From Haloterrigena alkaliphila (GTDB lineage Archaea > Halobacteriota > Halobacteria > Halobacteriales > Natrialbaceae), in contig NZ_CP071462.1 in NCBI RefSeq assembly GCF_017352155.2, positions 2,666,001-2,730,000 of the forward strand: DNA of 64,000 bases. Direction: 5' to 3'. The notes beneath the pieces were generated by a model. That model did not search any database and was not told the DNA's origin. It saw only the letters and a list, made by a program, of their open reading frames with translations. This document shows positions 17,352-59,360 of this stretch, in pieces. Position numbers and translations under genes: made by a program. Numbering within the stretch: position 1 is the first letter of the stretch; the number at the start of each line of letters is the position of its first letter.

Positions 17352-17378
17352 TTGGTCCACTACCAATACTCCGGTAGT
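17351..17378 (+). terminator. Overlapping hairpins after the toxin gene
   Basis: ATTGGT-(5)-ACCAAT at 17351-17367 and ACTACC-(8)-GGTAGT at 17359-17378 share the ACTACC segment, so only one can form at a time. Both lie directly on the toxin stop codon. The position suggests a transcript end, but there is no T-run. Confidence 0.35.
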
Positions 17379-17382
17379 ATAG

Positions 17383-17437
17383 GGCGGATTCGAACCGCGA
17401 GGACTCGAATCCTCTCGTCCTCTGGGTTCGAACCGCC
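17383..17437 (-). repeat. Palindrome containing copies of the tRNA-Gln T-arm
   Basis: On the tRNA strand this segment starts with an inverted T-arm (GGCGGTTCGAACCC) and ends with a direct copy (GCGGTTCGAATCCGCC) that is identical to the T-arm of tRNA-Gln 40 bp away. A small hairpin (GAGGA-6-TCCTC, 17399-17414) lies between them. The same arrangement recurs 3' of tRNA-Gly and of the orphan tRNA half. Confidence 0.8.
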
Positions 17438-17444
17438 GAGGATA

Positions 17445-17474
17445 TTTCGCGCTCACGGAACTGTTCGCGCGAAA
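17445..17474 (-). repeat. Hairpin touching the 3' end of tRNA-Gln
   Basis: TTCGCGC (17446-17452) pairs with GCGCGAA (17467-17473) around a 14-base loop, one base from the tRNA discriminator position. It occupies the same place as the hairpins at 56826-56861 and 58458-58493. It could stop transcription or guide 3' processing. Confidence 0.7.
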
Positions 17475-17475
17475 A

Positions 17476-17578
17476 TAGTCCCGGGCGGATTCGAACCGCC
17501 GTCATGGGCTCGCTTCCGTGACGGCCGGAACCGAACACGTCCAAAGGCCCATATGATTGGCCACTACACCACGGGACT
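17476..17578 (-). tRNA. tRNA-Gln (anticodon UUG) with a 30-base intron
   Basis: Acceptor strands AGTCCCG (5', ending at 17578) and CGGGACT plus discriminator A (17476) pair fully. The anticodon stem TGGGC/GCCCA encloses loop CTTTGGA with anticodon TTG. The T-arm is GGCGG-TTCGAAT-CCGCC. A 30-base intron (17511-17540) interrupts the loop between positions 37 and 38, the canonical archaeal site cut by the splicing endonuclease; tRNA-Gln introns are known in haloarchaea. The mature length is 73 bases, and CCA is not encoded. The D-arm is short with a G-U closing pair. Confidence 0.93.
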
Positions 17579-56465: not shown

Positions 56466-56742
56466 TGCGATTGAATCGTGACTGCATATACGGATAAGTG
56501 TTCCGCATCTGTATAGCTGAGCCAGGGTTTTCGAGACGAATGTTTCTCAAGTCCACTACTTTATGGATATTTAGATATATACGTGGGATATCTCACCGAA
56601 TCAGTGCCCGACCCGTCACAACGAGCGAGGTATTTCGTCGTATCCATAGTTCTCCCTCAGTGGTCTATCGTGTTCGCTTATGATTTGGTCATGTGCCACA
56701 CGGAATGGTTCGTTTCCGAACTCTTCATCCATGGTGGGTTCC
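56466..56742. other. AT-rich intergenic region before the tRNA-derived islet
   Basis: 277 bp, clearly lower in GC than the surroundings. It presumably includes the cspA promoter; apart from short frames without family features nothing else was recognised. Confidence 0.4.
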
Positions 56743-56880
56743 TGCGCGGAGCGGGATTTGAACCACTCCCGAGAACCTGCTCGCTACGCTCGCAGAACCT
56801 CGGTATAATTCAAATCCCTCGTACGATTGCTGTCGCTCGCGGAGTTGCTCGCGACAGCAATGCGCGGAGCGGGATTTGAA
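56743..56880 (-). repeat. 138-bp tRNA-3'-end cassette, copy 1
   Basis: Bounded by two copies of TGCGCGGAGCGGGATTTGAA (56743-56762 and 56861-56880), the complement of a tRNA 3' end. Inside: GGGATTTGAA (56753-56762) inverted at 56809-56818, and the hairpin ATTGCTGTCGC/GCGACAGCAAT (56826-56861). A nearly identical cassette lies at 58375-58512. Confidence 0.88.
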
Positions 56881-56895
56881 CCCGGGCCATTGGCT
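56861..56895 (-). pseudogene. Orphan 3' half of a tRNA (tRNA-Gly-like end)
   Basis: On the minus strand the sequence reads anticodon-stem 3' strand AGCCAA, variable TGGC, T-arm CCGGG-TTCAAAT-CCCGC and acceptor TCCGCGC plus A. The 5' half is absent nearby. Just before it, ACGGAAGCA matches the end of the tRNA-Gln intron (ACGGAAGCG) at the same distance from the 37/38 splice position. The T-stem has one mismatch. Either a broken tRNA, an integration scar, or a separately transcribed half. Confidence 0.6.
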
Positions 56896-57047
56896 TGCTT
56901 CCGTATTCGAGGACGAGTCGGATGAGACCTATCGACGGCTATAGAATGGTCGCTACGAGCATCGATATGAGTCCGAATTTCCTCGAATCGGGCGAATCGA
57001 CCATACGGGCGTGATAGCTCCGATTTTAGTATGCGAGTTAGAATGAC

Positions 57048-58040
57048 TTACTCGTACTGCTGTGTATCGAGTTCGTACCGTTTTACTCCATCTGACTCGC
57101 TGATCACAACGCGATTCTCATCTTCTAAGAGGTCGAGGTGGCCTATCACCTCGGACATTCCGGGGAACATTTCAGTCGCTGGAAGATCCGGAAACATCTC
57201 CTTCATAATTTGATACGCCGTCGTCGGCTCGTGGTCGGCTACGAGATCCGCGATTCGTTCTTTCCGCTCTTGATGATGAGTGATCGTCTCTCGCGCTCGA
57301 TTCTGAAGAGTCGAGATAGGGTCGCCATGGCCGCCGTACCCGAACGGGACCTCGGTATCGAGCACTTTTCGTAGTGACTCGAGATATGTCGGCAAGCTTC
57401 GCGTTCGTTCGTCTTCGGAGCCGGGTGCGAGCGTAAGTAACGGATTCGGCGTAATATCGGGCAAGACATGGTCGCCAGCAAACATGATGCCTTCCGTTTT
57501 TGCGAGATAACAGAGTGAACCAGGGGCATGACCCGGTGTCGAAAGGCACTCTAACTCTACGCCGACATCGATAGTGTCTCCCTCAGCTAATTCGTGGGAG
57601 ACAGTGACCGGATCCTGATACTCGGTGTACGGTTCCGGCAACTCGAGGACTGTATCCACCGTATCCATAGGCATTCCCATCGAGAGTAAGAACGGTCGGA
57701 AGTACTCCTGCTCCTTCTCGAAGTATCCAATTGGGTCAGACAACTGCTCGACGGCATCCTCGTGGGCGAATACATGGGCATTCGATTCCGCTACGAGCCG
57801 GTGTGCAAGACCGAAATGATCCATGTGAGGATGAGTAATAAGTACGCGATCGATATCGCTACTACTGTACCCGAAGCGAGCGAGAGAGCGTTCTAACTCC
57901 TCGTAGGCCTCCTCAGTTGCGGGTCCAGGATCGAGGACGGTCAGACCGTTCTTTGTAAAGAGATAGCAGTTTACCCGCCCGACGCTGAACGGTGTCGGAA
58001 TCGAGATCCGTTCCATTCCTTCCATAGCCACAACATTCAC
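57048..58040 (-). CDS. Metallo-beta-lactamase fold hydrolase
   Basis: 330 residues; in-frame ATGs at 58025 and 58016 are possible starts. The metal motif HPHMDHFGLAH (HxHxDH) near residue 70, later GHAPGSLCYL and a third His in FAGDHVLPDITPNP define the fold. A C-terminal winged-helix-like domain of about 75 residues (HHQERKERIADLVADHEPTTAYQIMKEMF) follows, as in the LACTB2-like subgroup. Its codon use and GC are lower than in all neighbouring genes, and it lies between tRNA-derived repeats, so it is probably acquired. Substrate unknown. Confidence 0.88.
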   Translation of the reverse strand: MNVVAMEGMERISIPTPFSVGRVNCYLFTKNGLTVLDPGPATEEAYEELERSLARFGYSSSDIDRVLITHPHMDHFGLAHRLVAESNAHVFAHEDAVEQLSDPIGYFEKEQEYFRPFLLSMGMPMDTVDTVLELPEPYTEYQDPVTVSHELAEGDTIDVGVELECLSTPGHAPGSLCYLAKTEGIMFAGDHVLPDITPNPLLTLAPGSEDERTRSLPTYLESLRKVLDTEVPFGYGGHGDPISTLQNRARETITHHQERKERIADLVADHEPTTAYQIMKEMFPDLPATEMFPGMSEVIGHLDLLEDENRVVISESDGVKRYELDTQQYE

Positions 58041-58353
58041 ACTTCAATTACTTATAGTGCTCACCAACGCCGTAATTCGGGTTCGGGTTATTGGCATACC
58101 TATCTCATGATAAGGCAGTACGATCGTTTATGACGGATCATAGTCTACTCGAAGCACGGTTCCTCCGGTAGAAGATCGGCGATCGCTTCTTGAATGGCGG
58201 GAACCCACTCGTCTTCTTCGACGGTCCGTTGCGCCCAGGGTAGCGAGGTCACGATTTTTGAAATCGCTGTACGACGGTAGGGTCGTTAGTTGAACCCGGA
58301 CTATGAGCTGTGACCCACATCTTTTGTTCACCTATAATGTGTGGGAAACCTGC
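58041..58353. other. AT-rich region with a gene remnant
   Basis: 313 bp between the hydrolase start and the second tRNA cassette; it holds the pseudogene fragment at 58145-58285 and an AT-rich promoter-like stretch near 58040-58070. Confidence 0.5.
58145..58285 (-). pseudogene. 3' remnant of a protein-coding gene (46 codons)
   Basis: A frame without a start codon of its own, opened just after a TAA, encodes IVTSLPWAQRTVEEDEWV, AIQEAIADLLPEEPCFE and a stop. The composition is protein-like and acidic, unlike the other frames here. It looks like the truncated end of a former gene, cut on the 5' side. Not identified. Confidence 0.35.
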
Positions 58354-58372
58354 GAGACAGCTCTGCTGTCTC
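58354..58372. repeat. Perfect hairpin next to the tRNA cassette
   Basis: GAGACAGC-TCT-GCTGTCTC, an 8-bp perfect stem with a three-base loop, two bases outside the second 138-bp cassette. Confidence 0.7.
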
Positions 58373-58374
58373 CA

Positions 58375-58512
58375 TGCGCGGACCGGGATTTGAACTACTC
58401 CCGAGAACCTGCTCGCTTCGCTCGCAGAACCTCGGTATAATTCAAATCCCTCTTGCGATTTCTGCTGCTCGCGAAGTTGCTCGCAGCAGAAATGCGCGGA
58501 CCGGGATTTGAA
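58375..58512 (-). repeat. 138-bp tRNA-3'-end cassette, copy 2
   Basis: Bounded by TGCGCGGACCGGGATTTGAA at 58375-58394 and 58493-58512. Inside: inverted GGGATTTGAA/TTCAAATCCC (58385-58394, 58441-58450) and the hairpin ATTTCTGCTGC/GCAGCAGAAAT (58458-58493). Same length and order as copy 1, with stem changes that are matched on both arms. Confidence 0.9.
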
Positions 58513-58563
58513 CCCGGGCCATGAGCTTGGAAGGCTCAGGTCCTACCACTAGACCATCCGCGC
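58493..58563 (-). tRNA. tRNA-Gly (anticodon UCC)
   Basis: 71 bases with acceptor GCGCGGA/TCCGCGC and discriminator A. The anticodon stem TGAGC/GCTCA encloses CTTCCAA with anticodon TCC. The T-arm is CCGGG-TTCAAAT-CCCGG, and the D-arm contains the conserved AGTGGTAGGAC. There is no intron and no encoded CCA. The 3' terminal 20 bases recur 98 bp downstream in the palindromic cassette. Confidence 0.95.
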
Positions 58564-58587
58564 GCACCAGCCGATTTTCCCTCCACG

Positions 58588-58595
58588 GTTAAGGC
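58588..58595 (-). promoter_or_regulatory. TATA box of tRNA-Gly
   Basis: CCTTAACC on the minus strand lies 25 bp ahead of the first tRNA base at 58563, the standard archaeal spacing. Confidence 0.5.
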
Positions 58596-58649
58596 TCTTG
58601 CTTTTCGGGGCAGCGCGTCGGGGTCGAGCGATTCTCCCTATTCGAGCCC

Positions 58650-59360
58650 TCACCCCGAGTCGCCTCCCGGTGCCGTCACCTCGGCGTAGCAGTTCCCGCT
58701 CGAGAGTTCCCACTCGAGGAGTTCGAGTTCGCTCGCCTCGAGTTCGGCCTCGAACTCGTCGGGCGCGTAGATGTGGTAGAAGCGATCGACGGTCTCGCCG
58801 CCGGGGAGGGTCCACTCGACGGTGGTGTCGAACCCCTCGGACTCCTCGAAGCGGTCGTGGGCGGTCGACCACGCGCTGACGAGCGCGCGGCCGCCGGGGG
58901 CGAGGACGCGGGCGAGTTCGTCGAGGCTGGCCCGTCGCGCCCGCGAGGTCGGCAGGTGGTGGAGCGTCGCGACGTAGACCGCGAGGTCGACGCTGTCCTC
59001 GGCCAGCGGGAGCCGCGCGGCGTCGCCCTGATAGAGCGCGACGTCGAAGCCGCGCTCGAGCGATCGCTCCCGACCCGTCTCGAGGAGACCGCGACTGACG
59101 TCGACCCCGACGACGGTGACGCAGTGGTCGGCCAGGAGTTCGGCGTGGCGGCAGTTGCCGCAGCCGAGGTCGAGTCCGACCGGACGCTCGCTCGTGCCGG
59201 ACTCGAGGTCCCCCGCGGCCGTCTCGACGAACGCCTCGACTTCGGGCCAGGCGTACTCCCGCGTCGACGCGAAGTGCGAGGCGATTCGGTCGTAAGTGTC
59301 GCGAACGGCGGCGCGTCGGTCGGAGTCGGCGGCCTCGTCTCGGTCCCCGTGATCGGCCAT
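58650..59360 (-). CDS. Class I SAM-dependent methyltransferase
   Basis: 236 residues from the ATG at 59360. Motif I GLDLGCGNCRHAELLAD, motif II VVGVDVSRGLLE, motif III YQGDAARLPLAEDSVDLAVYVATLHHLPT and a following RVLAPGGRALVSAW define the fold. The GCGN form of motif I and the LHHL segment are like the Trm9/ABH8-type tRNA methyltransferases, but also occur in other subfamilies, so the substrate is open. It ends 86 bp from tRNA-Gly and is transcribed toward it. Confidence 0.85.
   Translation of the reverse strand: MADHGDRDEAADSDRRAAVRDTYDRIASHFASTREYAWPEVEAFVETAAGDLESGTSERPVGLDLGCGNCRHAELLADHCVTVVGVDVSRGLLETGRERSLERGFDVALYQGDAARLPLAEDSVDLAVYVATLHHLPTSRARRASLDELARVLAPGGRALVSAWSTAHDRFEESEGFDTTVEWTLPGGETVDRFYHIYAPDEFEAELEASELELLEWELSSGNCYAEVTAPGGDSG

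Follow-up and report, generated by a model that had tools for sequence, protein, structure and literature searches.

Hairpin cassettes behind haloarchaeal tRNA genes: candidate recombining elements with a T-arm attachment site

The window analysed here, a stretch of 64,000 nucleotides from the 4.27-Mb genome of Haloterrigena alkaliphila (NZ_CP071462.1, positions 2,666,001 to 2,730,000), carries three small hairpin cassettes, each attached to the 3' end of an intact or truncated tRNA gene. They belong to an element of which the sources searched gave no description; it is present at about half of the tRNA genes in three genomes, and 50 of the 53 genomes sampled from the order have it at least at some places. 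As read from their sequences, the cassettes may be small, gene-less, recombining DNA elements that use the tRNA T arm as an attachment site and whose second hairpin, closed by an inverted and a direct copy of the T arm, acts like the attC site of an integron; we assign this reading a probability of roughly 0.4. A recombination system of this kind would show a way for hairpin recombination like that of integrons to arise from a tRNA T arm and would bear on tRNA genes as integration hot spots, while cassettes acting as RNA would constitute a large, hitherto unknown class of tRNA trailers. Either reading is directly testable in genetically tractable haloarchaea.

Anatomy of the cassettes and their fit to the local tRNA

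Positions without a prefix refer to the window, and positions within tRNAs follow the standard numbering. The genome of the window is designated G000, a congener G003 and a genome of another genus G016. For a protein encoded nearby, the best matches to named species are in Haloterrigena salina (80%) and Natronorubrum texcoconense (78%), as would fit a haloarchaeon, probably one of the Natrialbaceae. The original prediction had described a 36-base element in two copies at two tRNA loci. Both cassettes are present, and the order of parts that it had given is confirmed on the minus strand: the tRNA 3' end, hairpin A, an inverted piece of the T arm (anti-T), hairpin B, and a direct repeat of the tRNA's final 21 nt (T copy). 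The element proved to be far larger and far commoner than had been thought, and the two loci are in fact one intact tRNA-Gly(TCC) and a displaced, truncated copy of the same tRNA. The relevant features, assigned from the sequence unless another basis is given, are as follows.

58493..58563, minus strand: intact tRNA-Gly(TCC) (ARAGORN; RF00005, 70.8 bits)
58375..58492, minus strand: cassette 2, a complete 118-bp unit directly 3' of the intact tRNA-Gly(TCC) (sequence and covariance-model matches)
58458..58493, minus strand: hairpin A of cassette 2, including A73 of the tRNA, its stem with a tandem GA/GA mismatch (sequence, fold and covariation)
58440..58451, minus strand: anti-T of cassette 2, an inverted T-arm piece
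58396..58439, minus strand: hairpin B of cassette 2, tip C-GAA-G
58375..58395, minus strand: direct copy in cassette 2 of tRNA-Gly nt 53-73, 21/21 identical
56861..56897, minus strand: truncated tRNA-Gly of 37 nt, from the anticodon loop to the 3' end, resembling an attachment site
56743..56860, minus strand: cassette 1, a complete 118-bp unit 3' of the truncated tRNA-Gly (sequence and covariance-model matches)
56826..56861, minus strand: hairpin A of cassette 1
56808..56819, minus strand: anti-T of cassette 1
56764..56807, minus strand: hairpin B of cassette 1, tip C-GTA-G
56743..56763, minus strand: direct copy in cassette 1 of nt 53-73 of the truncated tRNA-Gly
17476..17578, minus strand: tRNA-Gln(TTG), 103 nt, read as intron-containing (RF00005 match G000:C1:2683476-2683578)
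17376..17476, minus strand: third cassette, 3' of tRNA-Gln(TTG), hairpin B reduced (model match 8.1e-9, or 4.8e-9 with a model from natural rows only)

Each unit is composed of hairpin A, a short linker followed by the anti-T (the complement of about nt 53-64), hairpin B and the direct copy of nt 53-73. The stem of hairpin A frequently holds a tandem GA/GA mismatch, and at tRNA-Gly its foot makes use of the tRNA's own last base, A73. The anti-T pairs with the direct copy and so makes the foot of hairpin B, whose tip is frequently a GNA triloop (50 of 99 computed loops). For the 89 units of G000, G003 and G016 that have a copy of at least 17/21 and a length of at most 260 bp, the median length is 126 bp (5th to 95th percentile 102-180), which is too short for a unit to encode an integrase.

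The T copy has a sharp start at G53, the base before the T loop, where identity to the tRNA is 0.99, against 0.63 at nt 52 and 0.29 at nt 51; its end lies near nt 73 (identity 0.84). Over nt 62-73 the best match is the unit's own tRNA in 86 of the 89 units. The anti-T is tailored as well: at tRNAs with an unusual T loop, 26 of 30 units show the exact matching variant and 0 of 30 the majority form, and nt 61-64 of the anti-T fit the own tRNA better than in any of 2000 shuffles. A complementarity of the linker to the acceptor end was also considered and is not claimed, with 2.83 of 9 positions compared to a shuffled mean of 2.40 and a top value of 3.02 among 2000 shuffles.

Distribution, turnover and folding

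Under a strict criterion, an own-tRNA copy of at least 17/21 together with the inverted piece, units stand behind 24 of 46 tRNAs in G000, 20 of 48 in G003 and 22 of 41 in G016, in sum 66 of the 134 tRNA matches used (one of 135, in which the T arm was not located, was dropped). At this cut-off, the end of another tRNA scores in 1 of 665 comparisons, 5' flanks in 0 of 88 and shuffled 3' flanks in 0 of 134, counts that rule out a chance origin of the own-tRNA copies. A loose cut-off of 15/21 gives 28, 24 and 23 tRNAs with units, but foreign ends then score in 82 of 665 cases, and some of the additional units are spurious, such as the one at Leu-CAA of G000. Occupied tRNAs have between one and five units behind them, each about 100-180 bp long.

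Copies 3' of other tRNAs, including the tRNA-Gln of the window, were sought and found with a covariance model. The model built from the G000 cassettes matches 38 of 41 genomes (relatives and G000 itself) at E 0.01, and two of the three genomes without a match are just 76-78% complete. Across a sample of the phylum, with 12 candidates scored per genome and E 1e-4, it matches 50 of 294 genomes, all within the window's order, for which 53 are listed; the order membership of the 224 unlisted genomes without a match was deduced from the list order. The natural-rows-only model gives the same result. In G000, all 32 matches at E <= 1e-4 belong to tRNA 3' ends: 29 lie at most 150 nt after the tRNA or the prior unit of an array (one of them on the other strand), and three are displaced. 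There are 13 weaker matches, and the three inspected are all without a link to a tRNA. Note that a tRNA-Pro(CGG) absent from the tRNA search was recovered through the cassette model, and that a low-scoring tRNA match at 2865958 is probably not a tRNA. Among 22 named loci, 14 include tRNA-Gly(TCC) in the stretch examined, and in 13 of these a model match follows directly, the exception being Halovivax sp. KZCA124; at some of these loci (L120, L121) the T copy is worn.

The set of unit-bearing tRNAs differs among congeners, and in two cases an exact empty site could be aligned. At Ala-CGC, which is filled in G000 and empty in G003, the DNA past the T copy of G000 corresponds to that past the bare tRNA of G003 at the same distance; at Leu-CAA the site is empty in G003 and filled in G016. 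In both comparisons the occupied and the empty site differ by exactly one unit. Other pairs of occupied and empty sites were unusable, their flanks being too different or the tRNAs duplicated.

Hairpins are shared between tRNAs. Val-GAC and His in G000 share with Ser-TGA in G003 a 38-nt hairpin B that differs by a single triloop base, and a pattern search with at most 3 mismatches in 101 genomes of the family gave 39 occurrences in 28 of them. Thirty of these loci were fetched and 29 parsed (one at a contig edge was excluded by the position filter, and 9 matches came without a separate locus). Each of the 29 stands behind a tRNA, with eight amino-acid kinds represented, and 28 of the 29 have a local copy of the tRNA end of at least 17/21. 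Hairpin A has a mean similarity of 0.600 for the same tRNA across genomes and of 0.528 for different tRNAs. At Gly-TCC, where hairpin B differs, G000, G003, Natronorubrum bangense and most named species have similar A hairpins; loci L112 and L117 start with a different hairpin A. Tandem arrays reach five units (Gly-TCC of G016), with repeats that are exact at Arg-CCT and nearly exact at Gly-CCC. Within the portion of G003 and G004 that was aligned, the pair of A hairpins at Pro-TGG is shared by these congeners but its order is reversed, and at Ser-TGA of G000 hairpin B is inverted between its repeats.

In cassette 1 the arms of hairpin A read ATTGCTGTCGC (56826-56836) and GCGACAGCAAT (56851-56861), in cassette 2 ATTTCTGCTGC (58458-58468) and GCAGCAGAAAT (58483-58493). 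As had been noticed originally, there are three differences, each matched on the opposite arm, and the two loops differ by one base. Since both cassettes sit at copies of one tRNA, a duplication probably gave rise to them, and taken by themselves they would be weak evidence of covariation; the two stretches are 90% identical, so the cassettes may stem from different hosts. The wider family bears out the earlier view that this is not decayed sequence. In an RNAalifold analysis of 13 natural cassettes, 18 of 30 pairs have two-sided changes. A 14-row alignment (one row shortened by hand) has 92.3% of its cells paired compared to 77.9% in shuffles, with 69 two-sided changes versus 23.2, and sliding the pair partners abolishes the signal. 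For hairpin A of Gly-TCC in 15 sequences from G000, G003 and named species, 96.9% of cells are paired and 27 double changes contrast with 9.6 in shuffles; they fall on 5 pairs, and 28 of 500 shuffles attain that number. A large number of copies with unpaired changes, which would have refuted the original prediction, was not encountered, as 92-97% of cells stay paired. The three compensatory changes first noted are thus one instance of a pattern that is general in the family.

The tRNA-sense strand of the 89 units contains 108 RC-GNA-GY motifs and the opposite strand 8 (9.1 and 0.67 per kb, the window background being about 0.7); with flanking GA steps the numbers are 59 and 1. The GNRA tetraloop, a usual choice of RNA, has 10 occurrences. 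Loops of the GNA kind are described as extraordinarily stable mini-hairpins in DNA (PMC4686876). The bias thus points to the sense strand as the one that folds, and the type of loop to single-stranded DNA. Fold energies of the B part are -34.8 for the sense and -30.6 for the opposite strand with RNA parameters, and -18.6 and -16.7 with DNA parameters; both sets favour the sense strand, the DNA parameters less so, and energies alone thus do not decide. A clean terminator signal was not found, with runs of at least four T in the first 100 nt of 21 of 75 cassettes, after 17 of 75 arrays and after 18 of 59 tRNAs without a cassette.

Proposed recombination and competing explanations

In the course of events that we propose, the sense strand would fold in single-stranded DNA and the anti-T/B/T hairpin would be the recombination site. 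A tyrosine recombinase cutting beside the T loop (G53/T54) would join this hairpin either to the tRNA's T arm or to the copy of an existing unit, whereby the tRNA would retain an intact 3' end and its old end would become the distal direct repeat. By analogy, the overall logic would be that of an integron, in which an attC hairpin recombines with attI, the T arm of the tRNA being the landing site here. An anticodon loop with its flanking palindromic stem fits the core-site layout of archaeal tyrosine recombinases as set out in PMC8371274, and the T arm would seem to fit it too. Going further, the cassettes might represent an archaeal, tRNA-anchored counterpart of the integron, with an order-wide, host-encoded recombinase that trades tiny cassettes via folded single-stranded hairpins, lands them on T arms and has their sites re-tailored for each tRNA; this extension is speculative and we consider it doubtful.

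A number of observations speak against recombining cassettes. The whole 12-nt anti-T is best or tied for the own tRNA in just 48 of 89 units, being weakly discriminating over this length because the T loop is alike in most tRNAs. The T copy reads GTTC, with a C in position 4 that departs from the integron core GTTRRRY, and the preference for the sense strand is greater with RNA than with DNA energies. Hairpin B similarities are nearly flat on average (0.608 for the same tRNA, 0.587 for different tRNAs within a genome and 0.570 between genomes), so that recent spread rests on the individual near-identical cases. The His-GTG locus could be aligned with the empty locus of G003 only with shifted starts. 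Some apparent absences of units may reflect displacement by an inserted element, as at the bare tRNA-Gly(TCC) of G004, which has an integrase gene close behind it. A B-like hairpin on a plasmid of Halomicrobium urmianum (L297 2497-2545) has neither a tRNA nor T copies next to it. No enzyme is linked to the cassettes, as PF00589 occurs in 14 of 14 genomes tested, three without a model match among them, and neither a circular form nor an excision product was seen. One 18-base cassette pattern had no match in viral contigs, few hairpin types having been tried. A relocated B hairpin would likely gain its matching anti-T by copying the neighbouring T copy in a hairpin-templated repair, or by selection for pairing, a step that the proposal itself does not explain.

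The original prediction had left the choice between a functional RNA and a recombination signal, and of these the recombination signal fits better, because of the turnover among congeners, the empty sites, the hairpin swaps and the DNA-type loops. Were the cassettes RNA, the tRNA transcript would read on into them, the hairpins would steer 3' processing, termination or turnover, and the anti-T would choose between the true T arm and its copy. The strong covariation of pairs, the folding of the sense strand, more pronounced under RNA energies, and the location directly 3' of the tRNA end all agree with this explanation, which we nevertheless regard as unlikely: about half of the tRNAs in the three genomes do without a cassette and the set varies among congeners, many of the terminal loops have the GNA form that is stable in DNA, and the anti-T could pair with the true T arm, to the likely harm of the tRNA. 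An origin without any enzyme, in which template switching by a polymerase and homologous recombination copy the T arm both ways, spread the hairpins by conversion and keep the arms complementary by palindrome correction, seems rather unlikely. It would account at once for the local anti-T, the co-changing arms, the tandem duplication of exact or near-exact units and the inverted B hairpin, but leaves unexplained the sharp start at G53, the confinement to one order in the sample and the recurrence of one hairpin B at eight tRNA kinds.

We hold it to be most unlikely that ordinary tRNA-integrating proviruses or plasmids left the units behind as former attachment sites. It is true that presumed elements at Pro-TGG, Arg-TCG and Gly-TCC end distally in displaced cassettes, among them cassette 1 of the window, and that Natronolimnohabitans innermongolicus has a similar one; a scar, however, would not hold two conserved hairpins and an inverted T-arm piece at 20 or more places per genome in many relatives, and the displaced cassettes look passively moved or carried by a larger element. 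Hairpins with adjacent base-pairing guides are the hallmark of IS200/IS605 elements, and the cassettes might be palindromes of this type, or REP-like ones, moved by a Y1 transposase with the anti-T as guide. Palindromic mobile elements of such a type are described from haloarchaea (PMC3119063). This mover is scarcely probable and largely refuted, unless a distant Y1 protein escaped detection: G004 and G012, with 32 and 26 model matches, gave none to Y1_Tnp, which is present in G033, G135 and G155, genomes of the order that lack any model match. Recombination of the cassettes would thus not need a Y1 transposase. Several broken Y1 transposase genes were seen in G135.

Known systems, displaced cassettes and neighbouring sequences

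An integron attC site has the core GTTRRRY and the inverse RYYYAAC at the foot of its hairpin. With it the cassettes share a repeat starting with GTT as boundary, an inverted and a direct copy paired at the hairpin foot, the reordering of tandem arrays and, as the strand bias of the GNA loops suggests, the folding of one strand; they differ in being gene-less, in landing at a tRNA T arm and in having a site tailored to each tRNA. Archaeal proviruses and plasmids that integrate into tRNAs by a tyrosine recombinase likewise leave the tRNA intact and create a direct repeat that spans the tRNA from a loop to its 3' end, a trait found here in the repeat of nt 53-73 and the two exact empty sites; the cassettes differ by their length of about 100-180 bp, the missing integrase, the two conserved hairpins and the internal inverted T-arm piece. 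The repeats at E. coli tyrT with the rtT RNA (RF00391) are tandem repeats after a tRNA as well, each with a copy of the tRNA 3' end, but belong to one locus in a bacterial group, whereas the cassettes occur at many tRNAs in an archaeal order; we know of no inverted T-arm piece in rtT. A comparison of 56500-58700 with all families of Rfam 15 at E up to 5 gave five matches, none inside a cassette and none to rtT. The small mobile repeats and MITEs of Haloquadratum, including its PATEs, are short, gene-less, palindromic and mobile in haloarchaea like the cassettes, but in the portion of PMC3119063 drawn on here they are described without a tie to tRNAs and without tRNA copies. In Methanopyrus kandleri a palindrome of about 19 nt follows about half of the tRNAs at a distance of about 10 bp and was reported to be species-specific (PMC5217627); a fixed place after many archaeal tRNAs is common to both, but this palindrome is short, and no tRNA copy is mentioned in the part of the report concerned. 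In agreement with the original remark that it knew of no described family of this layout, neither Rfam nor the open-access literature searched yielded a description or a named repeat.

Three cassettes of G000 are displaced. Some 19 kb separate tRNA-Pro(TGG) from its displaced cassette (G000:C1:1647835-1667359), with an integrase gene at the far end, and presumably this stretch is an integrated element that crosses over in the T loop; the cassette is preceded by nt 59-73 of that tRNA. About 54 kb lie between tRNA-Arg(TCG) and another displaced cassette (G000:C1:2514695-2569218), with two integrase genes near the far end. This cassette follows the exact last 13 nt (61-73) of Arg-TCG and was assigned by eye, its T copy agreeing with Arg-TCG in 16/21 and with Leu-CAG in 17/21 positions. 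The junction sequences suggest that T-loop crossing occurs at these loci in G000. Three arrays or displaced cassettes of this genome, those of Lys-TTT, Pro-TGG and Arg-TCG, have integrase genes nearby. The large elements did not serve to name an enzyme, PF00589 being present in every genome tested, and no linked IntI was found in a search for the general PF00589 domain, an IntI-specific domain search not having been made. Viral carriage of the cassettes was rejected for the few hairpin types tried: among the matches listed (20 of 22 in one search), blastn against phages hit the tRNA part, with at most 37% of the query, or unrelated sequence. A 1,649-bp Halomicrobium plasmid, considered as an excised circle, has just a generic hairpin.

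In the window, the truncated tRNA-Gly and cassette 1 lie about 1.5 kb beyond cassette 2, with one open reading frame between them:

57048..58040, minus strand: open reading frame of 330 aa between cassettes 1 and 2, a metallo-beta-lactamase-fold hydrolase as judged by eye (open reading frame list, no family search)

As a cassette gene this frame was dismissed, for it had no tblastn match in the 23 loci compared. The same plan is seen in Natronolimnohabitans innermongolicus (L113 8603-11359), where tRNA-Gly and a cassette are followed by about 2.4 kb of other DNA, a tRNA-Gly half and a cassette. Both arrangements may have been left by elements that inserted at the anticodon loop with an attachment site bearing the tRNA half together with the cassette.

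Some further tRNA loci are unusual. Two identical tRNA-Asp genes of G000 stand 386 bp apart (G000:C1:1711724-1712182), duplicated along with parts of a cassette, and G003 has a similar Gly-GCC pair. A tRNA-Gly fragment on a plasmid of Natronococcus sp. AD-5 (L200 3001-3058) ends abruptly at the T loop. On the Natrinema thermotolerans plasmid CP031304.1 (L298 2250-2572), a tRNA-Glu-like gene that is not called by ARAGORN carries a palindromic insert before the anticodon region and is followed by a cassette.

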